From Pseudarthrobacter sulfonivorans (GTDB lineage: Bacteria; Actinomycetota; Actinomycetes; Actinomycetales; Micrococcaceae): a DNA stretch of 64,000 nucleotides. The notes below the pieces were generated by a model. The model was not told the origin of the DNA. It worked only from the letters and a program-made list of their open reading frames with translations, and made no database searches. Of this stretch, positions 45,564-64,000 are shown piece after piece. The stretch's first letter is position 1, and every line of letters begins with the position of its first letter. The DNA lies in NCBI RefSeq assembly GCF_001484605.1, contig NZ_CP013747.1, positions 2,790,001-2,854,000 of the forward strand, in the 5' to 3' direction. The position numbers and the translations under genes are program-made.

Positions 45564-45589
45564 GGGGCTACCTTCTTACTTTTCGAGGT

Positions 45590-46624: not shown

Positions 46625-46627
46625 GGT

Positions 46628-46975
46628 TCACTCCTGGCCACGGTGCGCGATGGCTTCAATTTCCACCGTGGCACCGTATGGCAGCGCAGAAACTTCCACG
46701 AAGGTCCGGGCCGGCCGGGGAGCACTGAAGAGTTGCTCATAGTGGCTGTTGGCTTCTTCGCGCAGGGTCAGGTCCGTGACGAAGTAGGTGGTCTTGACGA
46801 TGTCCTGCATAGACATGCCGATGGTTGCCAACCGCTCCGAGAGCCTGGTCGAAGCGGCCTCAATGGCTTCGAGCCGACCACTGACGGGCGTGTAGTTTTC
46901 ATCAACGGACAACGCCCCGGACACAAAGCCGAAACCTCCGGCCTGATATGCCGGACTGTAGGGGTGAGCACTCAC
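46628..46975 (-). CDS. Rid-family protein (RidA-like deaminase)
   Basis: A 115-residue trimer-forming Rid/YjgF protein. Conserved pieces are HPYSPAYQAGGFGFVSGALSVD, NSHYEQLFSAPRPARTFVEVSALPYGATVEIEAIAHRG, including the Arg that binds the carboxylate of imine substrates. Rid proteins hydrolyse enamine/imines, and the family includes 2-aminomuconate deaminases. GTG 46975 has AAAGG at 7 nt; ATG 46990 would add five residues. Placed between the semialdehyde-dehydrogenase-like gene and the reductase, it suggests an amino-substituted intermediate. Confidence 0.88.
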   Translation of the reverse strand: MSAHPYSPAYQAGGFGFVSGALSVDENYTPVSGRLEAIEAASTRLSERLATIGMSMQDIVKTTYFVTDLTLREEANSHYEQLFSAPRPARTFVEVSALPYGATVEIEAIAHRGQE

Positions 46976-47019
46976 TGACTTGCCTTTCATCGGGGATGGA
47001 TTGGAATATGCTGCAGGTC

Positions 47020-48615: not shown

Positions 48616-48990
48616 GCTGCCGTCGACGTTGTTCGCGGCTTGTCCCGCAGGTCGCGGGGGCGACCCGGAATGTGAACTAGGTCATGCCAAAGAATAACAG
48701 TACTAAGATACTTTGTGTCAAGGAAGTGGGGGCTTGACCTTTAAGCACTAAGGAGATAGAACTAACGCAGTGGCATGATCTTCACCACACTTGCCTACCT
48801 CGCCAGCCCGCGTATTTATGGCCGGGCCGACGGCGAGAGAGCACATGTCGGGCTTGAACGGAGAAAATCGCCATGACGTAGCCTGCGAGCGTGCACCTCG
48901 TCCACGGCACTGACTGGCGAGCCGCCGATGATGGTGGCATCCCCCGCTTCGAGACTGAATTCGAAGCCCTCACAACCTTAAGGATGTCCG
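48616..48990. promoter_or_regulatory. Divergent promoter region of ALDH operon and AAHS transporter
   Basis: A 375-nt gap. The AT-rich part at 48690-48770 has AGTACTAAGATACTT (near 48700) and GCACTAAGGAGATAG (near 48753), similar to boxes before the cupin and marR genes. The remainder shows no coding signal. Confidence 0.45.
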
Positions 48991-50990: not shown

Positions 50991-51716
50991 TTAGTCCTTG
51001 TCGACCCTGCGAGTCTTGGCCAGCGCGGTTGCTCCGGCGGCCAGACCCAGCAGGCCGGTGCCCAGGCCTGCCCATCCAAGGGCCGCAGAGCCGGCATCGT
51101 GGGACACGGCAGAGGTAGCCGATGCCGCCTCAATATCTGCGGTTGCTTCGGCGCCGTGCGCACCTGCCGGAGGGGTGGCGATGAAGGAAGGCGCGGGATG
51201 CTCGGGCTTCGCTTGGCCGGCAACTGCCGCCTCACTCCAGTTCACAACAGTTCCGTCGGAGTACGTTTGGGCTGCCGGCAGCAGCACGGTAGTTCCTGCG
51301 TGCGGCAACCGGCCCACTGAGATAGAAAAGGTCTGGTACTGCCGCTGGGAAATCTGATGCGCCTCATCTGCTGTCCATACAACAGAGGCCGGAGCTTTCG
51401 TGATCGTTGCGCCCTTGACAGTTATAGGAGCTGCAAGCTCTGCTTCCAGGACCTCGACCGTCCAGCCATCCATCGGTTTGACCGACACGGACGTGAAGGG
51501 CGTTTCGGATGGGAGGGTGACTGTGAGTTTGGTCGTCTTGGCCGTTTGGGATTCGTTGGGGACCCGGAATGTCAGTTGGGAGAAACCACCTTCAGATGTT
51601 GAATCAGGTGTAACGCCGACGTGTGCTGACGCGGCTCCAGCGCCGAAGGTCATCAAACAGGTTGCAACGGCCAGAACCGCGGCTGTCTTGGGCGTGCGGC
51701 CGGTTGAAGAGTTCAT
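50991..51716 (-). CDS. ycnI: YcnI-family copper-binding membrane protein (DUF1775)
   Basis: A 241-residue exported protein. Signal peptide AVLAVATCLMTFGAGAASA is followed by HVGVTPDST, so the mature N-terminus would start with His, the expected copper ligand of YcnI proteins. FRVPNESQTAKTTKLTVTLP and GWTVEVLEAELAAP are family blocks, and a C-terminal helix LGWAGLGTGLLGLAAGATAL with KTRR tail anchors it. YcnI proteins bind Cu(II) and act in copper delivery. Located close to a copper amine oxidase gene, which needs copper to form its TPQ cofactor. Confidence 0.9.
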   Translation of the reverse strand: MNSSTGRTPKTAAVLAVATCLMTFGAGAASAHVGVTPDSTSEGGFSQLTFRVPNESQTAKTTKLTVTLPSETPFTSVSVKPMDGWTVEVLEAELAAPITVKGATITKAPASVVWTADEAHQISQRQYQTFSISVGRLPHAGTTVLLPAAQTYSDGTVVNWSEAAVAGQAKPEHPAPSFIATPPAGAHGAEATADIEAASATSAVSHDAGSAALGWAGLGTGLLGLAAGATALAKTRRVDKD

Positions 51717-51829
51717 CGTGATTGCCTTTCTCAGAGCGGTGTCACGGGCTCCGAACCGGACGCCGCGCCGATGGGCATTAAGGAAGCTGCGTCCACATTC
51801 GGATCGTATGACCGCTCGCTTTTTTGGTA

Positions 51830-51865
51830 CCAGGGCCTTCCGCGTTGGGCAACGGAAGGCCCTGG
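51830..51865. terminator. Hairpin after the Cys-rich small gene
   Basis: Perfect 13-bp arms CCAGGGCCTTCCG / CGGAAGGCCCTGG with a 10-nt loop, 13 nt past the stop of the 51-codon frame. Confidence 0.75.
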
Positions 51866-51877
51866 GGTCTGCTGCGC

Positions 51878-52033
51878 TCAGTCGGTCTCAGGTCCGGTGC
51901 AGAAGAAGCACTCCCCGGCCTCGAGGCTTGAGTCGCAAGTCTTTTCTATGAGGGTGGATCGCTCGGCGTTGGATAGGGCTCGGGTTTTCGCGACGCACTG
52001 TGTTGCTTGTGGGCGATCAATTGCCAGGGTCAT
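51878..52033 (-). CDS. Cysteine-rich 51-residue peptide coupled to the DUF5134 gene
   Basis: A short frame whose ATG overlaps the stop of the DUF5134 gene by 4 nt (ATGA). It encodes MTLAIDRPQATQCVAK...IEKTCDSSLEAGECFFCTGPETD with Cys at 13, 33, 42 and 45; the last two form CFFC. No signal peptide or known family. Support comes from the coupled start, the terminator placed 13 nt after its stop, and the copper context. It could bind copper or another metal, or be a redox peptide. Chance overlap cannot be excluded. Confidence 0.5.
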   Translation of the reverse strand: MTLAIDRPQATQCVAKTRALSNAERSTLIEKTCDSSLEAGECFFCTGPETD

Positions 52034-52686
52034 GACATGGTGGCAAACATCATGGCCATGACGGCGGCGCCGAGAGCTTCCAGCCCGTGTTCTGCACGGA
52101 CGGAAAGCCGCGAGGCCGCCGTGTCGCGGAGAGTGGTTTTCGTTACCCGGAAACGCACTAAAAGGAGAATGAAAACCACTGCCGCAGCTCCGAATAATAC
52201 TGTCAGCAGGATCGCGAGACCGGGTGAGTGGTCAAAGGTTGCTGCAGCCGTGCTTGGGGCTGCGGCTGCCATCGAGTGATGGGCGTTCGGCATTGACATT
52301 CCGCCTGCCGGAACGTGGCCGGTGGTGACCTGACCCATCATGGCAATCATGACCGCAGCGCCAGCCATGCTGAGGCTGTGGTACAGGCATTTTAGCCGCC
52401 CTTGGTTACCCGCGCAGAGTGTTTTGAATTCCGGCCGGGCGCCGGCCTGTATAACAAACCACAGCGCCGCACCGGTGAGGACTGCGGTCTGGGCCAGCGT
52501 CGTTGACGGCACGAGGTTCCATAACATGGCAGCCATGAGGACGTTCATGAGTGCATGGAGGCTTTTGTTGATCTGGTCCGTACGCTGGTGAGACTTTGTA
52601 GCCTGCAGGAAGTGGTAGCTCCCGCTAAGCAACAGAACGGCCGTGAGGGCCCAGGTAATGGCGGGGATATTGAACACGGGGATCAC
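52030..52686 (-). CDS. DUF5134 polytopic membrane protein
   Basis: A 218-residue membrane protein with about five helices (ITWALTAVLLLSGSYHFL, LNVLMAAMLWNLVP-like, LTGAALWFVIQAG, SMAGAAVMIAMMGQV, LAILLTVLFGAAAVVFILLLV). It carries His/Met-rich segments (MSMPNAHHSMAAAA) and a pattern seen in DUF5134 proteins, which are often encoded with copper genes such as YcnI. GTG 52686 is used; the frame opens 18 codons earlier but inside a stable hairpin. Probably helps copper uptake or delivery for the neighbouring amine oxidase. Confidence 0.75.
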   Translation of the reverse strand: MIPVFNIPAITWALTAVLLLSGSYHFLQATKSHQRTDQINKSLHALMNVLMAAMLWNLVPSTTLAQTAVLTGAALWFVIQAGARPEFKTLCAGNQGRLKCLYHSLSMAGAAVMIAMMGQVTTGHVPAGGMSMPNAHHSMAAAAPSTAAATFDHSPGLAILLTVLFGAAAVVFILLLVRFRVTKTTLRDTAASRLSVRAEHGLEALGAAVMAMMFATMS

Positions 52687-52719
52687 GCTCTCACTACTGG
52701 GTTTGGGTAGGTGCAGGAC

Positions 52720-52753
52720 GGTCCCCGATGCTGCTGCCACAGCACCGGGGACC
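52720..52753. terminator. Hairpin between amine oxidase and DUF5134 genes
   Basis: Arms GGTCCCCG / CGGGGACC with an inner TGCTG/CAGCA pairing. No T-run, so probably partial read-through. Confidence 0.65.
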
Positions 52754-52804
52754 GCCTGTTTAGGGTTGTTCCTTTTCCAGCTCTGATTCGTCAGCTTGGT
52801 CGGT

Positions 52805-54751
52805 TCACTTTTCCGTGGTGCAGCATGTTTCGGTGGTGGTTGTTTCGGTTCGGTTTTCGTTGCTGGGGAGGTTGAGGGTGGGGTTTTGGTCGAAGAAGCC
52901 GTGGGGTTCGAGCATGAAGCCGATGTTTTGGCGGGGCATGATGGGCCAGTCTTCGAGGCGGACGACGTGGTGCATGCCGAAGGTGTACCAGACTACGAGG
53001 TCTTGGTCGACGATGTTCCGGTCTTTTTGGGTCCAGATGTGCAGGCCGTCGTCGGCGCCGGTGGCTTGGTTGGGGAATTCGCCGGCGGCGAAGCGTTCGG
53101 TGCGGTCGTAGGCGGTGACCCAGAGGTTGTTGCGGGCGAATTGGGCTCGTTTGCTGACGTAGGATTCGTCGCCGGCGGCCAGTTGGATACCGTCGGTGGG
53201 GATGAGGCGGTAGGCGACGGGTTCGTCCACGATGTTCTTGCTGTCGCGGTTGGCGATTTTCCAGAAGCGGTGTTTGGAGGAGTCGGTTTTCCGGATGGCG
53301 GCTTGTTCGGTTTCGAGTAGCCGGTCCACTGCCATGAAGGCGGTGTGGGTGGGGTTGTCTTCGGGGATTTCCATGTCTACTTCGTAGACGGCGTTGTTCG
53401 GGCCGTCGATTTCGAAGTCCATGCGGACGTTGAACATGTGTTGGTGGATCGGGGCGTAGAGTCCGTCGTTGTTCAGGGTCTGGCCGTAGGGGCTTTTCTC
53501 GCCGGGTTTCTGGCCGGCGGTGGAGAGGATGCCGGTGGCTTTGACGAGGAATTCGATGCTGCCGTCGAGGAAGAGGTGCCAGTAGAAGGCGTATTCGTAG
53601 TTGGCGACGGTGGCGATGAAGGAGATGACGAGTTTGCGGCTGCGGCGGGTTTCGGTGGTGCCTTCGCGGAAGTCGAAGTGCTTCCAGAGGATGGAGTCGT
53701 CTTCCTCGTGCATGCAGATGGCGTTTTCGATGGTCAGCGGGTTGCCGTGGCTGTCGGCGGTGATGCCGTCGAAGTATTTGATTTCGCCGAGGCAGTCGCA
53801 GCCCAGGGTGAGGGAGTTGGCCATGTTGCCGATGTTGTATTCGCCGGAGTCGAAGGCGTTCTTTTTGGCCTGGACGGGGGCGGTGTCGCCGTAGGGGACG
53901 ACCATTTCGGAGAGTGAGGCGCGGTTGATGACGGGGCGTTCGGTGTCTTTGTTGCGGAACTTCAGCTGGTGGAGGACCAGGCCTTCGCGGGGGGTGAATC
54001 CGACGCGGAAGGACCAGTCGGCCCACTGGACGTGGTTTCCGGTGACGTTGAAGGAAGCGCCTTCGGGCTGGGTGATGGAGATGGGTTTGAGGTCGGTGCG
54101 GGCGGGGCCGACGTATTTGGGCAGGTAGTTGCCGCTGGCGCTGGGGACGGGGATGGCCTGGTCGTCTTCGACCTTGACGACCTCGCCGGAGTTGAGGTCA
54201 ACGATGACGATGAAGTTCTCGATCGGGTGCGCGTACGGGCTGTCGTCGGCCTCCTGACGGACGAAGACCAGGGCACGCATCAGGCGCCGGCCCTCGTTAT
54301 CCTCGCCGAAGTAGCCCACGGACCACGGTTCGAAGCAGACCAGGCCCATGTCGGTGATGCCGCGTTTGGCGAGGGCGGCCTGGACCTCGGGGTTCTTCCG
54401 GCAGCTCTCTTCACCCTCGGCGAACTCGTCGAGCATGAAGGGCGGGTGGATGTTGGCAGCCAGCTGCGTCCACTTCGAGACGATGCCCGCATCAAGGTCG
54501 ACAATCGCTTCGTAGGAACGCCCCTCGGCACGGTCCACGAGGACTGCATCTGCCTCGCGCACCGTCTTAGCGCCGCTGCGCAGCAGTTCCTTCTCAGGCT
54601 CGCGCAGCTCAATGCTGATGAAGCGGAACGACTCTGCCGCGGCCGGGCCGTCCTTCAGGATGGACGCCGCCCGGGAAATCTCATTCCGGGAAAGCGGATC
54701 CAGGGGGTGCGTTACCCCTACAACAGTTTCGGTTTCAATGTCGATAGACAT
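52805..54751 (-). CDS. Copper-containing primary amine oxidase (methylamine oxidase type)
   Basis: A 648-residue quinoprotein. The TPQ precursor is Tyr385 in N384-Y-E-Y387, copper ligands are H436, H438 (IHQHMF) and H594/H595 (GMHHVV), and the catalytic base is probably D301 (AFDSGEYNIG). Spacing matches Arthrobacter globiformis enzymes, and 648 residues is the length I recall for methylamine oxidases of Arthrobacter P1. It converts a primary amine, O2 and water to aldehyde, ammonia and H2O2. AAGGAG lies 6 nt before the ATG. Fourth catabolic gene after DmmA, reductase and DUF3445, so methylamine is the likely substrate. The C-terminus ends in a Thr-rich CC tail. Confidence 0.95.
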   Translation of the reverse strand: MSIDIETETVVGVTHPLDPLSRNEISRAASILKDGPAAAESFRFISIELREPEKELLRSGAKTVREADAVLVDRAEGRSYEAIVDLDAGIVSKWTQLAANIHPPFMLDEFAEGEESCRKNPEVQAALAKRGITDMGLVCFEPWSVGYFGEDNEGRRLMRALVFVRQEADDSPYAHPIENFIVIVDLNSGEVVKVEDDQAIPVPSASGNYLPKYVGPARTDLKPISITQPEGASFNVTGNHVQWADWSFRVGFTPREGLVLHQLKFRNKDTERPVINRASLSEMVVPYGDTAPVQAKKNAFDSGEYNIGNMANSLTLGCDCLGEIKYFDGITADSHGNPLTIENAICMHEEDDSILWKHFDFREGTTETRRSRKLVISFIATVANYEYAFYWHLFLDGSIEFLVKATGILSTAGQKPGEKSPYGQTLNNDGLYAPIHQHMFNVRMDFEIDGPNNAVYEVDMEIPEDNPTHTAFMAVDRLLETEQAAIRKTDSSKHRFWKIANRDSKNIVDEPVAYRLIPTDGIQLAAGDESYVSKRAQFARNNLWVTAYDRTERFAAGEFPNQATGADDGLHIWTQKDRNIVDQDLVVWYTFGMHHVVRLEDWPIMPRQNIGFMLEPHGFFDQNPTLNLPSNENRTETTTTETCCTTEK

Positions 54752-54854
54752 ACTTTTCTCCTTGGTTCTTTCTTCGCAATGAGGGTCAATAAAGGTCTGA
54801 CAGCCGGGGTGTTCTCCACCGATCGTTGGATGGGTAGAGGGCCCGGGCGGGTGA

Positions 54855-55853
54855 CTAGGTGGCCAGCAACCAGTCAGATGCCGCCTTGCGGTACCTGCTG
54901 ATGCCCTTGTACTCGGCCATGTCTTCCGGGAGCTCGGCCAACACGCGGCCCACGATCTCCCGCCAGACGGGGACCCGGGCAATGTCGGCGAGCGACAGAA
55001 GGTAGGTCCGGACCAAGAACAGGATCGCCCCGGAGTGGGGGAGGCGGATGAGGTGCTGGACCTCCACCCGCAGGTGGACTCTATCCGGGAGGGCGGGATC
55101 GTCGGCGATGGTGCCGCGCTCCGGTGCCCAGTTGGGATAGGTTTCGGTGGAGGTGTCCAGACGCCGGTCGATGGTTAAGGTCCAGTTGGTCCGCCGGTAC
55201 TGCTCGCCCGGCTGCAGCCTCAAGAGGAATTGCTCGGCCCGGCTGACGATCTTCTCCTCGAGTACCCGTGGGACGGGGCCGTGGATTTCGTGGAATTTCA
55301 TGCCGGTATCGAATCCGAGGGACCAGTCGGCGGCGAATGTGACGAGTCCGGCGTCGAGCCACAGCGCATCCTCGCGCTGGTCAAGAAAGACCATGTCGTC
55401 CTGGATCTGGCTGCCGAGGAACCGCAACGGGCCCCCCTGCAGGGAACTGTCGTCGCCGATGGTGAATTCCACCTCCAGGTCCTGCAGGCCGTTCCACCAG
55501 CGGCAATTATTTCCCTCCCGGTGGAAGGACATACTGTCCGGGTTTTCTTCCGCCATTGCGGGCAGCAGGGTAGCGATGGCGTCCCACACGGCTGGCCGCA
55601 TGTGCGGGAGGACCTGGATTCGTGAGGGATCCCGGTCCAGCACTTCGCCGCGTTCCTTGACGTCTGAAAGGTAGTGCTCGTCGATGTCCAGCAGCCGGCC
55701 GCCCCACTCGCCAGCTTCAGTCATCACTACTTTGCGGGACGGTTCGACGTTGGCGCTGTAGCGGTAACTTTCACTGGAATAGGGAAAGGGAAAGCGTTTG
55801 ATCCGTTCGGGGAGGGCCGCGGTGACCGCGTCTGTGTCGATGATGATGCTCAA
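54855..55853 (-). CDS. Haem-dependent oxidative N-demethylase-like subunit (DUF3445)
   Basis: A 332-residue protein of the DUF3445 family, haem-containing oxidative N-demethylases found in fungi and as a subunit of bacterial dimethylamine monooxygenase. Recognisable parts are RFPFPYSSESYRYSANVEPS at the N-terminus, SMSFHREGNNCRWWNG near 108-124, VTFAADWSLGFDTGMKFHEIHGPVP near 173-197 and WTLTIDRRLDT near 228. It overlaps the reductase gene by 4 nt. Expected reaction: dimethylamine + NAD(P)H + O2 to methylamine + formaldehyde. It should be the catalytic subunit with electrons from the flavin/2Fe-2S protein. Confidence 0.88.
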   Translation of the reverse strand: MSIIIDTDAVTAALPERIKRFPFPYSSESYRYSANVEPSRKVVMTEAGEWGGRLLDIDEHYLSDVKERGEVLDRDPSRIQVLPHMRPAVWDAIATLLPAMAEENPDSMSFHREGNNCRWWNGLQDLEVEFTIGDDSSLQGGPLRFLGSQIQDDMVFLDQREDALWLDAGLVTFAADWSLGFDTGMKFHEIHGPVPRVLEEKIVSRAEQFLLRLQPGEQYRRTNWTLTIDRRLDTSTETYPNWAPERGTIADDPALPDRVHLRVEVQHLIRLPHSGAILFLVRTYLLSLADIARVPVWREIVGRVLAELPEDMAEYKGISRYRKAASDWLLAT

Positions 55854-56827
55854 AGGTCCAACTCCAATTCTTCATCCAGGCTGCGTGAAACGCAGCACAT
55901 CATGGTGGTGTTCTCGGCTTTTTCCTGGTCACTCAAGTAGAGATCCCGGTGCTGGGGTGCCCCTCGAAGTACTGACAGGGAGCATTCGCCGCAGATGCCT
56001 TTGCGGCACATGTTCGGAATGCTTTTTCCTGCCTTTTCGAGTGTCTCCAGCAACGAAACGCCGGCCGGAACTTCCAATCTGATGCCGCTGCGGGCCAGGT
56101 TCACTGAGAACGGTTGGCCCTCATCCAGGTCGGCCGCGCCAAAGGCTTCTGAATGCAGAAGGCCCTTCGGCCAGCCAAGGTCGCGGGCCTGCTCGAGGAC
56201 TGAGTCCATGAAGGCAGCCGGGCCGCAGACATAAAGGTGAGTTCCGAGTTTCTGAGTAGTGAGCTTTTCCGTCAGAACTTCCTGGAAGCTGCCGCGATTA
56301 TGGCATTCCGTCAATCCCTGTCCCAGCAGTTCCCTCGCTTCCGCAACGTGGGCCCCTTCACCTGGCCGATAGCAGTAGATCAGGGATGCGGCCGCCCCCC
56401 ATTCGGCTGCGAACCGGGCGTGTGAAAGCACCGGCGTGATTCCGATTCCTGCGGCAATAAGCAAGTGATGTTTGGCATTTGCCGCAGGAGCGAAGGCACT
56501 GCGTGGACGCGAAACGTGGACGCGGTCACCCACGGCGAGCTCATGCATGGCCAGCGATCCCCCGGCACTGCCCTCAACACGCAGGACAGAGATGGTGTAC
56601 TCGAAGGGGGCGCTGCCTGATCCGGTGAGCGAATAGGCATTGGCGCCTGTCCCGTATTGGACCACGAGGTGGCTTCCCGGAACATAGGGAGGCAGAGGTT
56701 CCCCCGACGGATCACGAAACATGATGCTGGTAATCGATGGCGTCTGGATGCTGACGTTTGTCACCTCCAGCAACAGGCCTCCTGCCACCGCCGGGTGGAC
56801 AGTGGTCTCGAGAGTCGTCGCGGTCAT
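55850..56827 (-). CDS. PDR-type flavin/2Fe-2S reductase subunit of dimethylamine monooxygenase
   Basis: A 325-residue reductase: flavin domain (residues 20-105, with AYSLTGSGSAPFEYTISVL), nucleotide domain (LLIAAGIGITPVLSHARFAAEWG, LYVCGPAAFMDSVLEQA) and a C-terminal plant-type ferredoxin with CRKGICGECSLSV...C. It overlaps both neighbours by 4 nt (DmmA-like and DUF3445), so the three are made together. It passes electrons from NAD(P)H to the haem subunit. Similar in build to the Rieske reductase at 45590, but the gene context separates their roles. Confidence 0.93.
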   Translation of the reverse strand: MTATTLETTVHPAVAGGLLLEVTNVSIQTPSITSIMFRDPSGEPLPPYVPGSHLVVQYGTGANAYSLTGSGSAPFEYTISVLRVEGSAGGSLAMHELAVGDRVHVSRPRSAFAPAANAKHHLLIAAGIGITPVLSHARFAAEWGAAASLIYCYRPGEGAHVAEARELLGQGLTECHNRGSFQEVLTEKLTTQKLGTHLYVCGPAAFMDSVLEQARDLGWPKGLLHSEAFGAADLDEGQPFSVNLARSGIRLEVPAGVSLLETLEKAGKSIPNMCRKGICGECSLSVLRGAPQHRDLYLSDQEKAENTTMMCCVSRSLDEELELDL

Positions 56828-57312
56828 GCTGCTGCCTCCTCGGCATGGGCTGAGAATCCCAGGTAGCCTCCAATACGCCGGGAAAAGTGGCTACTAATTG
56901 CCAAGGTAGTAGTGCATCCCTGACAGTCCACCTCGGAGCCGCTGGGTTGATCGGTAATGGTGGCCGTGCGGCAGTGTCCGCAGAAAACGAGGCGCGGACC
57001 CCCTTCCTCACAGAGGAGGGTCATCTCCTCGTCCAGCAGTCCGCATTCCGCTGCTGCGGCTGCGGCTGCATGGACGTCGACTGCAGGGCCGGCCAGCACA
57101 AGACGGACCCCGATGCATGACCGGCCGAGCACAGACCTAAGGTTCGAGAGGGTTCCCTGGTCTGCAGATGAAAAACGGAGATCGTGCCGGGGCCGGCCAC
57201 CGTTGTTTTGATCCGCGGGAGCATCTGTTGAGCCGAATGAGGCACAGATGACCCCGCGGAAACCTGGTTCGCAGCCGGTGCCAGCTACCGGCCGCCTGGA
57301 TGCGGAACACAT
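56824..57312 (-). CDS. dmmA: Dimethylamine monooxygenase subunit DmmA-like
   Basis: A 162-residue protein. The C-terminal part has a four-Cys zinc-ribbon-like pair (C111-G-H-C114 and C130-Q-G-C133) followed by FSRRIGGYLGFSAHAEEAAA, the tail I associate with DmmA-family proteins. The N-terminus is unrecognised. The start at 57312 is supported because the same first codons survive in a truncated copy behind the second cupin gene (60324-60371). It precedes the reductase with a 4-nt overlap. Confidence 0.82.
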   Translation of the reverse strand: MCSASRRPVAGTGCEPGFRGVICASFGSTDAPADQNNGGRPRHDLRFSSADQGTLSNLRSVLGRSCIGVRLVLAGPAVDVHAAAAAAAECGLLDEEMTLLCEEGGPRLVFCGHCRTATITDQPSGSEVDCQGCTTTLAISSHFSRRIGGYLGFSAHAEEAAA

Positions 57313-57320
57313 GGTGGGTC

Positions 57321-57701
57321 CTACGGAGCGAAGGTGCGGTCGCCGGTGAAGAACCCCAGACCGTACTCAGGGGTTTCAAACTTGACGGTTGTGCCCTTGG
57401 GGAAGAACAGCACATCGCGTTCCTTCGCGTGCGTCACTTCGCCTGTCGTCTGGTCCGTGAGGATGAATTCACCCTTGATGACCACCTTCATTTCGTCGTA
57501 GGTGTACGTGTACACCAACGGCTCTGACGCCTTCAGTTCGAAGAATCCGGCGCACATGACCGATCCCTCGGGGTTGTGGAGGGAGTCGCCGATCGCAGCG
57601 ACCGTTCCAGGCTCGTTCATCGACGGCAGTCCGATGAAGCCGTTTTCGACTTTGTGGATGGAGCCGGCCTTGCTGAGTGTTCCTACGAGTGCGGTTTCCA
57701 T
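57321..57701 (-). CDS. EutQ-like cupin protein, copy 1
   Basis: A 126-residue single-domain cupin. LVYTYTYDEMKVVIKGEFILTDQTTGEV and ERDVLFFPKGTTVKFETPEYGLGFFTG are the two barrel motifs, resembling the cupin of EutQ/DUF861 proteins rather than the classic two-His type. It differs from copy 2 (60381-60761) at about 14 of 126 positions. AGGAG is 6 nt before ATG 57701. It ends 8 nt before dmmA. The role in amine use is unknown; metal or substrate binding is possible. Confidence 0.85.
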   Translation of the reverse strand: METALVGTLSKAGSIHKVENGFIGLPSMNEPGTVAAIGDSLHNPEGSVMCAGFFELKASEPLVYTYTYDEMKVVIKGEFILTDQTTGEVTHAKERDVLFFPKGTTVKFETPEYGLGFFTGDRTFAP

Positions 57702-58000
57702 GATTTCTCCTATGAATGGTGGTGTGAAAGATTTCTCAGTGCTGTTCATCGTTGTCAGAGCTGTTCGTCTTTGCTGCATGTGAGACTGCGCTGGAGATCT
57801 AGTTAGAACCCTGGATGGGCTCCGGGAGGATCCGTCTGCGATCCCGACATCCTCTGTTTCCAGAGGGCCAGCCGAGCTCTACTCGAGCCCTGCTGGGTGT
57901 GATGCCAGTCACGAACGTTTGTCCTGGTTGCAAAGCTACGCGACGTTATTCATCTAGTCCAGTCTTTTTTAGGATTATTAATTTGAGAGTTTCAAGTTAA
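57702..58000 (-). promoter_or_regulatory. Conserved leader of cupin copy 1 operon
   Basis: About 280 nt upstream of the cupin ATG closely resemble the leader of cupin copy 2. Shared blocks include AAAAAAGACTGGACTAGATGAA at the distal end (near 57950-57975), GTGAC-GGCATCACAC (near 57900), a GC-rich stem segment (57830-57880) and the last 80 nt. The frame just before the ATG is not kept open in copy 2, so it is untranslated. It may hold the promoter, operator and a structured RNA. Confidence 0.55.
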
Positions 58001-58042
58001 TTTTTCTCCCCGAGTATTGACATATCGGAACAATCAAGACAG

Positions 58043-58555
58043 GTGTGTGCGCGACCGCCAATCACGGGGCACGGGGAGGTCAGTGTTCGCGCTCGAATCC
58101 ATGACTTATGCCCACAAAATCCAATGCGAGCCTTGGTTCGTTGGAGAAAAAGGGGCCGGCCCCGGTGTCCGCCCGCAGCGATGGCATCATCGCGCCCCGA
58201 TCTCGGGTGGAGGACCCGCGACGCCGGAAACACGGTCGTGATCTCCGGCGGAAGTCTTGAACAGGGCTCGCGAAGCTCTTCGCGCTACGCCGAGGAATAC
58301 CTTTAGTACGATATTTTTGCCAGCGGCGCCGCGCCCTTCTTCCAGGAGATCACGAAATACATGGACCGAGCGATGCGGGCCATGGTGCAGGAGGCAGGCG
58401 GTGCCGTCATGGCTGCGGCGGGACATCGAGTCCGGCGGTTGGGAGGGGCCAAGGAAAAAATGCGTAGAGGGACGCAAGTACGCAGATTCCCGGACGCAGA
58501 AACAGGAAGGCAGACCGTTCTTGACCGGTCTGCCTTCCCGTCTTTGAGGCAGTGA
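58043..58555 (+). other. Possible decayed reading frame of unknown origin
   Basis: One plus frame stays open for 170 codons apart from a TAG at 58304. The part after it reads naturally (YDIFASGAAPFFQEITKYMDRAMRAMVQEAGG) but shows no recognisable family or ribosome site. It lies between two leftward transcription units and overlaps the permease terminator. Otherwise this 600-nt gap is empty. Confidence 0.2.
58505..58538. terminator. Terminator hairpin after the APC permease
   Basis: 13-bp arms GGAAGGCAGACCG / CGGTCTGCCTTCC with an 8-nt loop, 85 nt beyond the permease stop. Separates the cupin2-permease unit from the cupin1-dmm unit. Confidence 0.8.
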
Positions 58556-58622
58556 CTGGAACGGTGACCGGCAGTCAGCAGGGGGACTCCTTTGGATCTA
58601 GAAGCCATAGGTGCAGGTTCCG

Positions 58623-60107
58623 TCACCTGGCTACGGGAACCTCATCTTCCAAATCTGCGGCATCGTCATCTAAAGGGCGGGCAGTGGCTGCTTTTTTGGA
58701 GCGACTCGATTCGTGCTGGGAGTAGAACCAGATGGGTATGTAGAGCGCCAGTACGATGAAGCCGACCCAGGTCGGGGTCCAGCCGATCTCGAGGCTGTTG
58801 AGGTAGACCACACCGATTAGGCACAGGGGCAGGTTGAACAGGCCGAAGACGATGGCGACGTTTTTCCAGCCCTTGGGTGCCGTGAATGGCCTCTCCAGGG
58901 CAGCGAAGTCGGGGTGTTTTTTGGCTCTGACGTAGGCGAACAGGCTGATGCCGTTGGCGCAGGTGTAACCTATCGCCGATGCCGCGACAATCGCGGCGGG
59001 GTTTCCCATCGAGATCAGCAGCAGGTTGAAGGCTCCGATGACGAGCATGGCCACGAAGGGAGTGCCGTGGCGGTTCGTTTTGCCGAGAGACCTGGGGAGG
59101 TTGCCTTCCGTGGCCATGGAGTGCATGGCTCGGGACGAGCCCAGGTAAGCGGTTTGGATGATCAGTATCATGGCGGCGATCAGCATGATGATGGTGATCA
59201 TGGAGCCGGCTTGGCCAAAGACTGCCTGGGCGACCGGAATCAGGGGCGAGACAGGTTCGGCCAGTACGCCGTCGACACCCAGCACGCCGATCACTGCGGT
59301 TTGCACCAGCACATACGAGAAGAAGCAGATGATGCCGCAGGCAAGCAGGGCTTTGGGGACGTCTTTGGCTGGGTTTTTGTATTCGGGGCCGTAGATGGCT
59401 GCCGTTTCCCAGGCGCAGGCACTCCATTGTGCGATCGCAAAGATGCCAAAGAGAATCAGGATATGGTGCAGATCCCAGGCCCAGTCTGTCGGCACCCAGC
59501 TGCCGGTGATGTTGGTCAGCTGAACGTGTCCGGTAGCAAAAGGCGCCACCGTCAGGACGACCAGCGGTATCAGGGAAAAGGCAGCCAGGATGTACCCCAG
59601 TTTGGCGCCGTCCTTGAGGCCGAACCAGTTGACGGCGAACAATCCGCCGAAAATCACTACCCCGGATATCAACGAGAGCTGATACTCGGTAAACGTCTCG
59701 CCCAGCACCGGAAACAGCCCATGCAGGTAACCGCCGACCAGGATGGAAAAAATCGCCAGTACCGGGGTCCAGGCGAACCAGTAGCTCCAGGCACTGAAGC
59801 CGCCGATCAGCTTGCTCTTGTCGTACTTGCCCTGGTAGTTCTCGGTGCGAAAAATATGCTGCGCGAAACCCGGCAGGCCGGAGGCCTTGGGAAAGGTCGT
59901 AGCCATCTCGGCATAGGCGGCGTTCTGAAAGAATCCCTGAACGACCGACAATCCCCAGATAAGAATGGCTGCAGCCGATAAATACATTGGAAGATAGCCC
60001 AAGGAGGGCAGTATCAGCAGGGGCACACCCAGCGCAATGGCCAGACCCTGTTTCCAGTCGATCGACCTTTCCAGGTCATCGACTCCGTCCGAACGATTTT
60101 TACTCAT
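58623..60107 (-). CDS. APC-superfamily amino acid/amine permease
   Basis: A 494-residue 12-14-helix transporter. The first helix region GLAIALGVPLLILPSLGYLPMYLSAAAILIWGLSVVQGF, helix 6 ILILFGIFAIAQWSACAWETAAIYGPEYKNPAKDVPKAL (the conserved APC stretch with the E-x-K-N-P motif) and helix 8 TAYLGSSRAMHSMATEGNLPRSLGKTNRHGTPFVAM identify the family. It lies 273 nt behind cupin copy 2, with the remnant of a dmmA-like start between. In this context it likely imports dimethylamine, methylamine or a quaternary amine precursor; methylammonium uptake by APC members is plausible but unproven here. Confidence 0.9.
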   Translation of the reverse strand: MSKNRSDGVDDLERSIDWKQGLAIALGVPLLILPSLGYLPMYLSAAAILIWGLSVVQGFFQNAAYAEMATTFPKASGLPGFAQHIFRTENYQGKYDKSKLIGGFSAWSYWFAWTPVLAIFSILVGGYLHGLFPVLGETFTEYQLSLISGVVIFGGLFAVNWFGLKDGAKLGYILAAFSLIPLVVLTVAPFATGHVQLTNITGSWVPTDWAWDLHHILILFGIFAIAQWSACAWETAAIYGPEYKNPAKDVPKALLACGIICFFSYVLVQTAVIGVLGVDGVLAEPVSPLIPVAQAVFGQAGSMITIIMLIAAMILIIQTAYLGSSRAMHSMATEGNLPRSLGKTNRHGTPFVAMLVIGAFNLLLISMGNPAAIVAASAIGYTCANGISLFAYVRAKKHPDFAALERPFTAPKGWKNVAIVFGLFNLPLCLIGVVYLNSLEIGWTPTWVGFIVLALYIPIWFYSQHESSRSKKAATARPLDDDAADLEDEVPVAR

Positions 60108-60323
60108 AAGAATCTCCTTTAGACGAACTTAGATTCGTCTGATTTTTTAGACATGTGAGTTGCTTCTTGAATCGTTTAAAGAGGCGGCGTGGCAAACCAC
60201 AACACTCTTGCCGACAGCTGGTAATCGTGTGGTTTGCCATTGCTCGGCGGGATCAATCGTGCTGATTGATTCAACAGGCAGCGCATGATGCGGCGTACAC
60301 TACGGCGATTTGAAGGTACATGG

Positions 60324-60371
60324 ATGTTCGCTGCCGGTGCCTGAAGCGGGTGGCCTGGACCCAGAACGCAT
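60324..60371 (-). pseudogene. 5' remnant of a second dmmA copy
   Basis: Directly behind cupin copy 2, ATG 60371 begins MRSGSRPPASGTGSEH, matching MCSASRRPVAGTGCEP of the intact gene; the homology stops after about 16 codons and the frame soon ends. Shows that the duplicated segment reached into dmmA and was then cut. The rest of the gap 60108-60323 is empty. Confidence 0.7.
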
Positions 60372-60380
60372 GGTGGGGTC

Positions 60381-60761
60381 TTAGGGTGCGAAGGAACGGT
60401 GGCCGGTGAAGAACCCCAGACCATAGTCAGGCGTCTCGAATTTGACGGTTGTGCCCTTTGGGAAGAACAGCACGTCGCGTTCCCTGGCGTGCGTTACTTC
60501 CCCTGTGGCCTGGTCGGTGAGGATGAATTCACCCTGGATGACGACCTTCGTTTCGTCGTAGGTGTACGTGTACACCAGCGGTTCTGACTCCTTCAGTTCG
60601 AAGAATCCGGCGCACATGACCGACCCGGCAGGGTTGGAGAGGCAGTCGCCGATGGCGGCATCACACCCGGGTTCGTTCATCTCAGGCAGTCCGATGAAGC
60701 CGTTTTCAACTTTGTGGATGGAGCCGGCCTTGCTGAGTGTTCCTACGAGTGCGGTTTCCAT
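60381..60761 (-). CDS. EutQ-like cupin protein, copy 2
   Basis: A 126-residue paralogue of the protein at 57321, identical for the first 26 residues and about 89 percent overall. Two extra Cys (GCDAAIGDC) are present near residue 33-40. Same AGGAG ribosome site and the same conserved leader. It now heads the APC permease unit, whereas copy 1 heads the monooxygenase unit. Duplicate preservation suggests dosage or differential function; recent copying is equally possible. Confidence 0.85.
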   Translation of the reverse strand: METALVGTLSKAGSIHKVENGFIGLPEMNEPGCDAAIGDCLSNPAGSVMCAGFFELKESEPLVYTYTYDETKVVIQGEFILTDQATGEVTHARERDVLFFPKGTTVKFETPDYGLGFFTGHRSFAP

Positions 60762-61050
60762 GATTTCTCCTATGAATAGTGGCGTCAAAGATTTCTCAGA
60801 GCTGTTCATCTTTGTCAGAGCTGTTCATCTTTGCTGCATATGAGACTTGCTGAAGTTCAAGTCAGGGCCCTGGCCGAGGCTCCGGGAGGGATCGTCTGCG
60901 AACCCGGCATCCTCCAACTTCCAGAGGGCCAGCCGAGCTCTGCTCGGAGTTCTGCCGGTGTGATGCCTGTCACGAAGGTTCGTCCTAACGGGCAAAGCTA
61001 CGCCTCGAAATTCATCTAGTCCAGTCTTTTTTAAATGTCGGTTTCCGACC
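60762..61050 (-). promoter_or_regulatory. Conserved leader of cupin copy 2 operon
   Basis: Homologous to 57702-58000. The distal block AAAAAAGACTGGACTAGATGAA is at about 61010-61031. Just upstream, GTCGG-AAA-CCGAC (61037-61049) forms a palindrome that copy 1 lacks. Distance from the distal block to the ATG is about 250 nt, long for a simple promoter. Confidence 0.55.
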
Positions 61051-61412
61051 GGGCTCAATTTTCGCGTCAGCATGCAGGGGCAAGAATCGCAGCGCTTGCC
61101 TTAGGCAAGGCGAGCTGTGCCGGGTCCGATCCAGATGGCTTGTAAGCCAGTAAATGAGCCGTTGGCGTTGAGTGCGACGGCAGAGCGGGGGTGGAGTGCA
61201 CCTGGTGGAGGTGCTTCTTGGGATGTTCCGATCCAGACTCTGGAACGGAGGCGGCTGTGATGTATATCACTTCAAAGGTTGCAGACTTAAAGCTATATGG
61301 CAACAGTTTTCTTGCGGATCTCAGCCAACTTTGTCGGTCCCATGTATTGAGGCCGGCACACCAGAGCGCGAACTATAACAACGATCCACTGCCTACTTCA
61401 GGAGGTCCGAGG
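61051..61412. other. Intergenic region between Cache gene and cupin2 leader
   Basis: A perfect palindrome CTTGCCT-T-AGGCAAG lies at 61095-61109 and may be an operator or small stem. No coding frame with natural composition and no RNA gene seen. Confidence 0.45.
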
Positions 61413-62120
61413 CTAGGGGGTATAGATCAAGGACAGCCCCAGGTGGGGAACATCCAAATCCAACCGATGTTGGTCTGGAGATCCGGATTTGATCCGCTCG
61501 CCAACCAAGTACCTGCCAGAGTTGCCGAGAACGACGCGGTTGCTGGCGTTGATGAGGGCGGCATCGCCTGGGATGGCTCGCAGGGTTGGCATGATGAGGG
61601 GTTCCAGGTCCTTGATCCGAATATCGCATGCGGCTACGCCGGCAAAGTTCCCGTGGACGGAAAACGGAGCCGCGAACGTAAGGATGTATTCCTCGAAGCC
61701 GAGATAGTCGACATACGGCCCCCAAAAGGTCTGCTCACCTGTGGACGCGGCGGTTGAAAAGAACGGTAGCTTCTCATAGTTGTAATATCGGCTGCTGCCT
61801 GGAGTCAGGTCAAAATCAAGCCTGCCGATGGCGCCGGACTCCTTGCGGGACCACCATTCCCAAGGTCGGCCGCCCTCCTCAACGGATTCCGTGGCGAAGA
61901 AGGTCCCGGCGCCGACAGCAAAAGTGTTATTCGTCAGGAACTGCCGTGAGAGTTCGTCCAATCCGACCAGGGCAGCCTTGTCGATTTTGGACTTGCCGGC
62001 GAGATTCTGTTCAAGCAGCGAGGCAACGGACCTGGAGAGTTTCTGAGTCTCCATGGCGACGCCGCTAATCCACGAAGTGAGGGCATTGGCAGCTTGTACG
62101 ACTTCAGTGGCGGGCTTCAT
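61413..62120 (-). CDS. Soluble Cache-domain sensor protein
   Basis: A 235-residue protein without signal peptide or membrane helix. An N-terminal helical part (1-60) precedes a Cache fold: AVGAGTFFATESV, RPWEWWSRKESG, LDFDLTPGSSRYYNYEKLPFF, FWGPYVDYLGFEEYILTFAAPFSVHGNFAGVAACDIRIKDLEPL. Cache domains normally sit outside the membrane in chemoreceptors and kinases and bind amines, amino acids or carboxylates. Here it starts within the stop of the GntR gene (4-nt overlap). It probably binds an amine-type signal in the cytoplasm and works with the regulator. Confidence 0.82.
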   Translation of the reverse strand: MKPATEVVQAANALTSWISGVAMETQKLSRSVASLLEQNLAGKSKIDKAALVGLDELSRQFLTNNTFAVGAGTFFATESVEEGGRPWEWWSRKESGAIGRLDFDLTPGSSRYYNYEKLPFFSTAASTGEQTFWGPYVDYLGFEEYILTFAAPFSVHGNFAGVAACDIRIKDLEPLIMPTLRAIPGDAALINASNRVVLGNSGRYLVGERIKSGSPDQHRLDLDVPHLGLSLIYTP

Positions 62121-62878
62121 TGACCATCCTGGATTGATCGGGCGTAACCGAGGGTGAGTTTCTTGTCAATCAGATGGAAAATGTTTCGCCTGATGTGCTC
62201 AAGTACCAGTTTCTGGGCCTTCTCGGGTTGGTCCTGGGCGACTGCCCGGACCAATTCCAAGTGTTCAGCGGTTGCCTGTTCTGGGTCAAATGCCACCGTG
62301 AGCGGGGTCCATAGCTGCTGAACTGTTTCTTCCTGAAGCCGGATTTCGGCGTTGGCAAGCCTCGGTGATTGCGCGGCTACTGCCAACTCGATATGGAAGC
62401 GGCTGTCAGCAGGTGCACGCAATTCGGGGGTTGAGGCCAGAACCAATGCTCGCGCAAGTTCCTGAAGACGGTCGACGTCGTGTGCTTCCGCGCGCTCACA
62501 TGCCAGCCGGACGGTCGTGGCTGCAATAGCGGAATGCTCGTCTCCGATGTCACGTATTTCCGAAATGGACGTCGAGAGGAACCAATCCCGGATGGTGTCG
62601 GTCTGCGTACGAGGCTGGCTGACGACGAAGGTTCCCCCGCTCCGGCCTCTGCGAGTCTCGACGATTCCCCGCTCGCGCAGGTCCCCCAAAGCTTCGCGAA
62701 GAGTGGCGCCGCCAACTCCAAACATCTCCGAGAGTGCCGCTTCCGGGGGCAGACGTTCACCTACTTTGAGCAGCCCGAGGCCAATGGCCTTGGTAATCCT
62801 GTCCACAATTGCGTCGGCCCTCTCGATTTCCGGCAAGGACCGATATATCTGCGATTGGAATGAGGACGGCGAGGCCAA
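62117..62878 (-). CDS. GntR-family regulator, FCD subfamily
   Basis: A 253-residue regulator starting at TTG 62878. N-terminal winged helix ERADAIVDRITKAIGLGLLKVGERLPPEAALSEMFGVGGATLREALGDLRERGIVETRRGRSGGTFV; C-terminal all-helical FCD domain with metal/ligand-type residues (DSRFHIELAVAAQSPRLA, EHLELVRAV, EHIRRNIFHLI). Coupled to the Cache gene. Position at the edge of the amine cluster, between leftward dmm/permease units and rightward hxlBA, makes it the likely pathway regulator. Confidence 0.9.
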   Translation of the reverse strand: MASPSSFQSQIYRSLPEIERADAIVDRITKAIGLGLLKVGERLPPEAALSEMFGVGGATLREALGDLRERGIVETRRGRSGGTFVVSQPRTQTDTIRDWFLSTSISEIRDIGDEHSAIAATTVRLACERAEAHDVDRLQELARALVLASTPELRAPADSRFHIELAVAAQSPRLANAEIRLQEETVQQLWTPLTVAFDPEQATAEHLELVRAVAQDQPEKAQKLVLEHIRRNIFHLIDKKLTLGYARSIQDGQ

Positions 62879-63249
62879 AAGTCTGCGCTCCGAGAATGGG
62901 CTACGGGTCAGGACAACAACAAGCAGCCCGGACAGGACCTAAAGGACTTAACTCGTTCTTCAGAGTCTATGCAATAAATCCTTCAAAACTGCGGCTTTCA
63001 GAACGGTAGGCCTCCGCGCTCCAGCGGACCGGTCCCTCTAAGGAGCCACTCGTCCGGCATGGCAGTCCATGGACCACGGCGTTGGACGCTTCCTCAACGG
63101 ACGGCCTGGGACAACGCCCAATCCTTAAGTGTAGTTAGAACCGTCAGAAAACAGTGTTACCCCTGCCCTTTTGCTTCGGGATTATGGATATCAACCAGAA
63201 AGCATCGTTCGACCGACACAGGCCGACGACCGAAGGGAAGGGACAAATC
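62879..63249. promoter_or_regulatory. Divergent gntR/hxlB promoter region
   Basis: A 371-nt spacer between divergent genes. I see no strong palindrome; AT-rich segments near 62950-62995 and 63120-63150 could hold promoters. An ATG at 63184 would extend hxlB by 22 codons. Confidence 0.35.
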
Positions 63250-63849
63250 GTGAATCCGACAGCAAGTACAACGCTCACCGGGTACAGCACCACCGGTGAC
63301 ATTGTCCGCAATCTGTCTCTCGTCAGGGACGAGATCGCGGACACAGCGGCCAAGATCGACGAGCAGCAGGTAGCTGACGTGGCCCGCCATCTCAGCCACC
63401 CGGGCCGGGTGTTCGTGGCCGGCGCGGGCCGAAGCGGGCTTGTCCTGCGTATGGCCGCCATGAGGCTGATGCACCTGGGCCTGGATGTCCATGTCGCCGG
63501 TGACACCACCACTCCCGCAATCAGTTCCGGTGACCTGCTCCTGGTGGCCTCCGGATCGGGAACCACCTCGGGAGTGGTCAAGTCAGCGGAAACAGCAGCG
63601 AAGGCCGGAGCGCGGATTGCGGCGTTCACCACCAATCCGAGTTCGCCGCTCGCTGGGCTCGCAGACGCGGTGGTGATCATTCCCGCCGCCCAGAAGACCG
63701 ACCACGGCTCCAGCGTTTCCCGCCAGTACTCGGGGTCTCTCTTCGAACAGGTCCTTTTCCTCGCCACGGAAGCACTCTTCCAGTCTCTGTGGGACAACAC
63801 CGATGTACCGGCTGAAGAGCTCTGGCTCCGGCACGCCAACCTCGAATAA
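63250..63849 (+). CDS. hxlB: 6-phospho-3-hexuloisomerase
   Basis: A 199-residue SIS-domain isomerase. VFVAGAGRSGLVLRMAAMRLMHLGLDVHVAGDTTTPAISSGDLLLVASGSGTTSG is the PHI signature, with the catalytic Glu/His region near the C-terminus (QYSGSLFEQVLFLATEALFQ). GTG 63250 follows GAAGGGAAGGGA and gives the usual length. It converts hexulose 6-phosphate to fructose 6-phosphate in the RuMP pathway. The synthase gene follows after 55 nt. Confidence 0.94.
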   Translation: MNPTASTTLTGYSTTGDIVRNLSLVRDEIADTAAKIDEQQVADVARHLSHPGRVFVAGAGRSGLVLRMAAMRLMHLGLDVHVAGDTTTPAISSGDLLLVASGSGTTSGVVKSAETAAKAGARIAAFTTNPSSPLAGLADAVVIIPAAQKTDHGSSVSRQYSGSLFEQVLFLATEALFQSLWDNTDVPAEELWLRHANLE

Positions 63850-63904
63850 CCGAACCACAATTTTTCACACCCACCGCAGTTCCCAACAGAAGGAAAACAA
63901 CACC

Positions 63905-64000
63905 ATGAAACTCCAAGTTGCTATGGACGTCCTGACCACTGAAGCCGCCCTCGAACTGGCCGGTCAGGTCGCCGAGTACGTCGACATCATCGAGCTCGGC
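63905..64000 (+). CDS. hxlA: 3-hexulose-6-phosphate synthase, N-terminal part
   Basis: Only 32 codons are in the window: MKLQVAMDVLTTEAALELAGQVAEYVDIIELG. This is the characteristic start of hexulose-phosphate synthases (orotidine-decarboxylase superfamily, first strand with the catalytic Asp and the second strand IIELG). GAAGGAAAACAACACC precedes the ATG. The enzyme joins formaldehyde to ribulose 5-phosphate and with PHI removes formaldehyde made by the amine pathway. Confidence 0.93.
   Translation, partial: MKLQVAMDVLTTEAALELAGQVAEYVDIIELG

Follow-up and report, generated by a model that had tools for sequence, protein, structure and literature searches.

Which genes carry dimethylamine (DMA) into central metabolism in actinobacteria that assimilate formaldehyde through the ribulose monophosphate (RuMP) cycle? 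The question is raised by a locus at the end of a 64,000-nucleotide stretch of the 5.06 Mb genome of Pseudarthrobacter sulfonivorans (RefSeq assembly GCF_001484605.1, contig NZ_CP013747.1; G000:C1:2790001-2854000, where G000 labels the window's own genome; hereafter the window), in which genes for a DmmABC-type haem N-demethylase lie between a copper amine oxidase gene and divergent hxlB and hxlA genes. The initial annotation had proposed that these genes lead from dimethylamine through methylamine and formaldehyde to fructose 6-phosphate, and the gene identities support this pathway. We consider this pathway a sound reading of a set of intact genes; the locus is likely a methylated-amine utilization and RuMP island of a Micrococcaceae-type bacterium, with DmmABC, oxidase, and RuMP route as originally proposed. 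Positions are given in window numbering unless another locus label (Lnnn) or genome coordinates are stated.

In the proposed mechanism, DmmABC, a haem N-demethylase with its own NAD(P)H reductase, would convert dimethylamine to methylamine and formaldehyde, and the adjacent copper amine oxidase would release a second formaldehyde from methylamine, along with ammonia and hydrogen peroxide. HxlA and HxlB would then condense formaldehyde with ribulose 5-phosphate and isomerize the product to fructose 6-phosphate, the products of tkt, tal, rpe, rpiB, fba, pfk, and gap would close the RuMP cycle, and a mycothiol-dependent dehydrogenase would burn surplus formaldehyde. A trimethylamine monooxygenase (Tmm) encoded 41 kb away may feed in trimethylamine through trimethylamine N-oxide (TMAO), and the amines are probably sensed by a PDC and GntR protein pair. 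Where several proteobacterial operons have the folate-binding DmmD, this operon begins with a EutQ-like cupin that has no metal histidines. What the sequences show are the identities of the genes, their conserved residues, the synteny, and the cis elements; the substrates, the fluxes, the regulation, and the role of the cupin are inferred.

The DmmABC operon

On the minus strand, the genes follow each other in the direction of transcription as GntR-FCD, PDC/Cache, EutQ-like cupin 2, APC permease, EutQ-like cupin 1, DmmA, DmmB, DmmC, copper amine oxidase, DUF5134, and YcnI, while hxlB and hxlA are divergent to the dmm genes and start a plus-strand run that extends past the window end. The core features are:

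52805-54751, minus: copper (topaquinone, TPQ) amine oxidase, predicted methylamine oxidase, 648 aa (PF01179, E 1.1e-156; NF008559 above cut-off)
54855-55853, minus: DmmC / HODM alpha subunit, a haem N-demethylase (PF11927, E 1.5e-63; 5LTE, E 9.8e-87)
55850-56827, minus: DmmB reductase, NAD(P)-binding, 2Fe-2S (Fer2, NAD_binding_1, and DmmA-like_N domains)
56824-57312, minus: DmmA subunit, short form, 162 aa, with a C-terminal four-cysteine motif (PF22289; NF041259 above cut-off)
57321-57779, minus: EutQ-like cupin 1, directly 5' of dmmA, with homology beginning at the ATG at 57701 (PF06249)
63154-63849, plus: hxlB, 6-phospho-3-hexuloisomerase (TIGR03127 above cut-off), an open frame with an uncertain start, probably downstream of a promoter-like element
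63905-64000, plus: hxlA, 3-hexulose-6-phosphate synthase, cut by the window end (TIGR03128 above cut-off)

All three dmm genes are present and each overlaps the next by 4 nt, as had been described, and their family assignments are borne out by Pfam, NCBIfam, and a solved-structure match. The alpha subunit scores 215 bits against PF11927 (DUF3445, now HODM_asu-like; cut-off 25) and aligns over residues 15-329 with the solved HODM of Pseudomonas mendocina (5LTE), and the reductase and the DmmA subunit are encoded in the same operon. Among 58 alpha rows (a distant outlier being left out), 37 positions including H191 are near-invariant. The closest named alpha is that of Pseudarthrobacter sp. SSS035 (95%), and some close relatives already carry the database names DMA monooxygenase or haem-dependent N-demethylase. 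DmmA passes the NCBIfam model NF041259, which does not require the two-domain form: both the N and the C domain are Pfam-significant in Paracoccus aminophilus DmmA, but only the C domain is in the window protein. Its C111, C114, C130, and C133 are invariant in 23 sequences, and its fold has no PDB match at E 0.001 or better.

Dimethylamine monooxygenase is best characterized in proteobacteria. The dmmABC genes of Ruegeria pomeroyi, expressed in E. coli, convert DMA to methylamine 1:1 without dmmD (PMC5520151), and a mutant in each dmm gene of the P. aminophilus plasmid pAMI6 was reported to be unable to grow on DMA (PMC4543880). The three structural genes and their dmmA-dmmB-dmmC order are the same in the window as in the dmmDABC operons of pAMI6 and R. 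pomeroyi (PMC4543880, PMC5520151), and pAMI6 also resembles the island of the present genome in having an APC permease and Tmm nearby. The systems differ in what surrounds them: both proteobacteria have a GcvT-type DmmD upstream, where the window operon has a cupin; they are described as using the serine cycle or folate oxidation (PMC4543880, PMC5520151), whereas the window has RuMP genes; and the pAMI6 stretch has no copper oxidase match beside its dmm genes, unlike the window. Compared with the P. mendocina HODM, the window alpha is homologous along nearly its full length but belongs to a separate clade.

The copper amine oxidase

The amine oxidase was described as a 648-residue protein with all TPQ and copper residues, and this description stands, with its ATG at 54751. 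In the alignment with phenylethylamine oxidase 1AV4, Y385 (in TVANYEY), H436 and H438 of the HQH motif, H595, and D301 are kept; we take Y385 to be the TPQ tyrosine, the three histidines to be the copper ligands, and D301 to be the catalytic Asp. In the same alignment, the window oxidase has A299 where 1AV4 has a tyrosine.

RuMP genes and their promoter element

Both divergent hxl genes claimed at the locus were found, but hxlA is truncated at the window end, its frame ending 528 bp further on, so the locus is incomplete inside the window. The description of a complete locus within 13 kb therefore does not hold: the whole is far longer, and the remaining RuMP genes lie outside. The plus-strand run, which continues past the window, encodes HxlB, HxlA, an S-(hydroxymethyl)mycothiol dehydrogenase (MscR), and an FdhF/YdeP oxidoreductase, all above their NCBIfam cut-offs, and an MBL-fold protein that in the same scan stayed below any cut-off. 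By inspection of the translations we named zwf, opcA, tkt, tal, rpe, rpiB, and fba, as well as pfk and a gap-like gene on the opposite strand.

Some of these genes have an upstream element in common:

63130-63163, plus: promoter-like element common to hxlB, tkt, and (weaker) gap (sequence comparison)

A copy precedes tkt (about 90% over 80 bp) and a weaker one gap (80% over 44 bp), and a blastn search of the genome with the tkt copy at E 0.1 returned itself and the hxlB copy, nothing else. The element is also kept upstream of hxl in eight related loci (L004, L005, L006, L007, L012, L013, L015, and L017). The matrix made from it has 11 sites, all but one of which are those loci and the copies of this genome, and these own sites score far above shuffled sequence by construction. 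We rejected the idea that hxlB and tkt are preceded by a leader peptide (MDINQKAS), as its ATG is ATT in L007 and L017. The matrix also gave a weak match (16.8 bits, against a shuffle maximum of 3.2) at L043 15641 on the minus strand, near a gene that by eye resembles a glycoside hydrolase gene.

Relation to published C1 islands

The arrangement had been called less documented. However, an amine oxidase plus RuMP island was in print in 2015 (PMC5023230), and dmmABC was annotated in an actinobacterium, Nesterenkonia, in 2022 (PMC8875376). The survey of McTaggart (2015; PMC5023230) described one-carbon (C1) islands with amine oxidase and RuMP genes in Arthrobacter sp. 31Y, 35W, and MA-N2 and Mycobacterium sp. 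141 and 155. According to its Table 2, they have in common with the present island Mao, EutQ, Hps, Hpi, Zwf, Tkt, Tal, Rpe, Rpi, Fba, Pfk, and Gap, with Mao listed as fragments only in the Mycobacterium islands. According to the survey's account, no DMA monooxygenase candidate was identifiable besides Tmo, to which DMA activity was assigned, and a ferredoxin/flavodoxin-like, NAD(P)-binding protein was proposed as a TMAO demethylase, "Tmd" (PMC5023230).

The gene numbers of the survey are Mao 3577, Tmd 3579, and EutQ 3581 in 35W; Mao 1322/1323, Tmd 1325, and EutQ 1327 in MA-N2; and a partial Mao 2885, Tmd 2887, and EutQ 2889 in Mycobacterium 141 (PMC5023230). The corresponding loci in our set (L007, L014, and L018, respectively) all have the order oxidase, DmmC, DmmB, DmmA, EutQ, which places Tmd at DmmB. 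The oxidase is full-length in L007, consists of two stretches in one 568-aa frame in L014 (a region that the survey counted as two genes; PMC5023230), and is reduced to a 36-residue match in L018. Matched in this way by gene order and spacing to the numbers that the survey gives, "Tmd" is at the DmmB position and its unnumbered neighbours are the predicted DmmC and DmmA; unlike in our reading, the survey's island descriptions do not identify DmmA and DmmC and give the DmmB gene another function (PMC5023230). Among the open-licence PMC papers that our literature searches brought up, we found neither a published link of dmmABC to the oxidase and RuMP island nor a published correction of "Tmd" to DmmB. 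The arrangement is a known island type whose DMA step was missed and misassigned, and the new part is the cupin in place of DmmD.

Phylogeny and synteny of the alpha subunit

The alpha tree has 59 rows and is rooted by one very distant row (L055), which leaves sister relations unsettled. The window alpha falls in a 17-row group inside a 22-row clade (support 100/99) of Micrococcaceae, Cryobacterium, and Mycobacteriaceae, in which 21 of the 22 rows have the cupin. 5LTE, P. aminophilus, and further proteobacteria group with ten rows of the window's own family in a separate 20-row clade (100/100). Subject to the uncertain root, the window alpha is related to the tested DMA enzymes but does not nest among them.

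One scan of the genome contigs gave 27 loci, and the counts of 18 below refer to the window and the 17 closest loci (L004-L020). The cupin is present in all 18 of these operons. In 12 of them an oxidase gene, or a part or remnant of one, lies directly downstream of alpha; L017 and L018 have remnants, L014 has two matching stretches in a shorter frame, and the contigs of L006, L010, L015, and L019 take in just the first 160-180 bp of the gene. Divergent hxl genes lie upstream in 10 of the 18, L014 having a fragment only. In L009/L073 and L029, alpha is directly followed by a trimethylamine monooxygenase, in the place of the amine oxidase. Two dmm operons adjoin or lie near each other in L026, L027, L020, and L059, one with a cupin and the more diverged one without; the second operon of these pairs possibly serves a second substrate.

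The island looks laterally acquired, which is also McTaggart's view of such islands (PMC5023230). HODM alpha is present in 20 of 158 family genomes but in none of the other 8 genomes listed for the genus, the oxidase gene has a second copy in the genome (described below), and the GC content of the 56-64 kb end of the window is 0.56-0.59, against 0.60-0.65 in most of the remainder (except 14-16 and 36-40 kb).

Several observations weigh against a DMA-to-RuMP function of the locus. The window alpha lies beside, not inside, the clade holding 5LTE and P. aminophilus DmmC, subject to the same uncertain root. Four of the 18 operons have no amine oxidase despite at least 500 bp of downstream sequence, L005 and L012 have none in the roughly 300 bp available, and seven operons with at least 8 kb of upstream sequence have no hxl genes. 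The matrix search did not find the RuMP promoter element upstream of the cupins. A P. aminophilus dmmD mutant fails on DMA (PMC4543880) and R. pomeroyi is reported to require dmmD for growth on DMA (PMC5520151), while the window operon has no DmmD. Finally, the genome has no DUF1989 match and hence no DUF1989-type TMAO demethylase (Tdm), which leaves the trimethylamine branch incomplete.

Alternative readings of the locus

The substrate of the haem demethylase might instead be another secondary or tertiary N-methyl amine (e.g., N-methylethanolamine, sarcosine, or a fragment of a pesticide), and that of the oxidase a larger primary amine. Besides the position of alpha outside the clade of tested enzymes, this would be in line with phenylethylamine oxidases being the best solved relatives of the oxidase and with the resemblance of the cupins to ethanolamine EutQ. 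We nevertheless consider it improbable, as the genes are surrounded by RuMP genes, Tmm, and a permease nearest to the TMAO permease model, the cluster is shared by L007, L014, and L018, whose strains had been obtained by isolation on methylamine (PMC5023230), and the oxidase has 95% identity with Mao of Arthrobacter sp. 35W (L007), which the survey named from the Arthrobacter P1 methylamine oxidase (PMC5023230). Strain 35W is reported to have two near-identical Mao copies (PMC5023230).

A still less probable reading, to which we give very little weight, is that the island is decaying or partly silent and its genes are relics of transfer. The genome does have a second copy of the oxidase gene (L043 6666-7936; G000:C1:2878665-2879935, minus) that is 98.6% identical in DNA and split over two frames, whether as a pseudogene or through an assembly error; two mycobacterial loci have oxidase remnants, and alpha is missing from the 8 further genomes listed for the genus. 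In the window, however, full-length open frames with conserved residues are found for the dmm, oxidase, and hxlB genes, and the cis elements are conserved between genera. That the reductase alone is a TMAO demethylase, as the survey proposed for "Tmd" from gene location and cofactor motifs (PMC5023230), is scarcely credible even in a genome with Tmm and without a DUF1989-type Tdm, since its gene shares 4 nt with each of the DmmA and HODM alpha genes, it has the same domains and place in the gene order as P. aminophilus DmmB, and R. pomeroyi dmmABC is a proven DMA monooxygenase (PMC5520151).

The EutQ-like cupin in place of DmmD

The EutQ-like cupins had not been mentioned in the initial annotation. 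Two are in the window, cupin 1 at the head of the dmm operon and the following:

60381-60809, minus: EutQ-like cupin 2, 88% identical to cupin 1

A third is beside Tmm, 41 kb past the window end. We compared 57 distinct dmm operons from the window, genome contigs, ten hand-picked plasmid loci, and Micrococcaceae-family loci. Upstream of the dmm genes, 27 have a cupin, 7 a GcvT-type DmmD, 23 neither, and none both. The chance probability of this mutual exclusion is 0.008 with no correction for relatedness, and we regard it as suggestive only. A cupin annotated as "ethanolamine utilization protein" also precedes dmmA in Candidatus Mycobacterium methanotrophicum. Among the 158 family genomes the cupin occurs in 6, all of which have HODM alpha (the chance value of 2e-6 ignores relatedness), and it adjoins Tmm in G000, G098, and G113.

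The cupin homologues, mostly of 125-127 aa, match Pfam EutQ, and their closest solved relatives are the EutQ structures 2pyt and 4axo. The predicted structure keeps the EutQ fold (TMq 0.79 and E 7.9e-10 against 2pyt; five AF2 models with pLDDT 72.7-92.0, the best 92). In place of the usual HxH of cupin motif 1 is Y64-x-Y66-x-Y68-x-E70-x-K72, in which Y66, E70, and K72 are invariant and Y64 and Y68 nearly so among 50 sequences; at positions 64, 66, and 72 the 2pyt structure carries W, L, and D. From the cupin motif, we assume that the Y64-K72 side chains face the barrel, and the five residues could plausibly enclose a methylammonium or TMAO ligand in an aromatic and acidic cage. With the cupin metal histidines missing, a metal-dependent cupin mechanism was rejected. 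We noticed no Eut genes besides the cupins in the annotated surroundings, which were not searched with Eut profiles.

The window operon has no DmmD, and the five GcvT-family matches of the genome lie elsewhere, four of them matching P. aminophilus DmmD at 25-31%. DmmD has been suggested to conjugate formaldehyde with tetrahydrofolate (PMC5520151, PMC4543880). Its loss next to RuMP genes would fit free formaldehyde as the assimilated form; however, the cupin is also found in operons without visible hxl genes, which limits this interpretation.

Two simpler roles were rejected. The cupin is not a general Tmm partner, as 40 of the 45 family genomes with Tmm (E 1e-60 or better; 42 over the cut-off) have no cupin, and 5 of the 6 cupin genomes have Tmm, whereas all 6 have HODM alpha. 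Nor is it a necessary part of DmmABC, given the operons with neither cupin nor DmmD and the 14 cupin-free genomes among the 20 with alpha. We regard the cupin as a candidate replacement either of DmmD or of the TMAO demethylase missing from the genome, the latter weakened by G055, which has a cupin without Tmm, and by G034, which has a cupin together with a Tdm-sized DUF1989 frame. More specifically, and tentatively, it could be a fourth, actinobacterial demethylation component that replaces the folate-binding DmmD and either carries formaldehyde or amine from one to another of Tmm, DmmABC, and the RuMP enzymes or is itself the TMAO demethylase; we regard this as less likely than not.

The trimethylamine and TMAO branch

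Tmm, 41 kb past the window end, is identified by NF058570 (734 bits, cut-off 675). Tdm was sought as DUF1989 and GCV_T in one protein, a combination found in P. aminophilus Tdm as the positive control, which in the present genome matches four of the five GcvT-family loci with its GcvT part only. With "Tmd" reassigned to DmmB, no known-type TMAO demethylase is left in this genome. Across the family, DUF1989 occurs in 34 of 158 genomes, and frames of Tdm size (796-799 aa, judged by size alone) were found just in G034, G060, G102, and G119.

Regulators and CRP-like sites

The putative regulatory features are:

57898-57913, minus: CRP-like palindrome CGTGACTGGCATCACA, upstream of cupin 1 (pattern search)
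60959-60974, minus: CRP-like palindrome CGTGACAGGCATCACA, upstream of cupin 2 (pattern search)
61413-62120, minus: PDC/dCache protein, candidate amine sensor (Pfam and weak dCache similarity)
62117-62878, minus: GntR-FCD regulator (Pfam), its gene having a 4-nt overlap with the PDC gene

The 16-bp palindromes have the pattern GTGA-N6-TCAC, which to us resembles CRP/GlxR sites. The window has 2 against 0.24 expected, a number reached in 6 of 100 shuffles. Stronger support comes from their place in related loci: 17 of 22 cupin genes have such a site within the 350 bp upstream, with 0.026 expected per stretch, those without being L004, L006, L008, one L014 copy, and L020.

The PDC protein is weakly similar to dCache sensors (PctA, E 1.3e-4), and by eye it has no obvious signal or membrane segment. 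A single-chain GntR-FCD-PDC regulator encoded at L044 627-2066 (G000:C1:2889626-2891065, minus) is 31% identical to the window GntR and 29% identical over 72 residues to the window PDC, and this natural fusion supports the two window proteins acting together. Two-gene operons that pair a stand-alone intracellular amine-type dCache (dCache_1AM) protein with a transcription factor have been described for Arthrobacter and other Actinobacteria (PMC10104139). The window, with a stand-alone PDC gene overlapping a GntR gene, is alike, so its pair probably belongs to this known class.

Flanking and neighbouring genes

The APC permease, the DUF5134 protein, and the YcnI-like protein were all confirmed by Pfam:

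50991-51716, minus: YcnI-like DUF1775 protein (PF07987, E 1.5e-43)
52030-52740, minus: DUF5134 protein (PF17197)
58623-60107, minus: APC permease (Pfam), whose best NCBIfam match is the TMAO permease model, below cut-off (225 vs 690 bits)

The description of the locus as having its own copper genes is weak. YcnI had no match in the compared loci outside the window (five related oxidase-bearing loci with more than 4 kb of downstream sequence: L004, L007, L013, L014, and L018) and probably just adjoins the conserved locus without belonging to it. DUF5134 is linked to the oxidase: it lies near the oxidase in L004, L007, L014, and weakly L013 (34%, partial), a second copy is present in the genome at L043 4232-4900, and our literature search found no paper tying it to copper. 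An HH pair and a CxYH motif are present in all five aligned DUF5134 copies.

Next to the locus, at 43769-50277, is an unrelated-looking cluster that encodes an alpha/beta hydrolase, an extradiol dioxygenase, a ferredoxin reductase-like protein, an aldehyde dehydrogenase, a RidA-like protein (by eye), and an aromatic-acid MFS transporter; we noticed no oxygenase component for the ferredoxin reductase-like protein in this cluster. A search of L002 for RNA families gave no match.

Implications for Gram-positive methylotrophs

The dmmABC genes of this island provide a candidate DMA monooxygenase for Gram-positive methylotrophs, a step for which the 2015 survey reported no genes (PMC5023230). With its TMAO demethylase candidate removed, TMAO cleavage in these bacteria is open again, and the dmm-linked cupin is singled out as a small protein family that offers a tractable question. 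Since dimethylamine is described as feeding marine aerosols (PMC5520151), correct gene markers of its degraders would matter for metagenome surveys.

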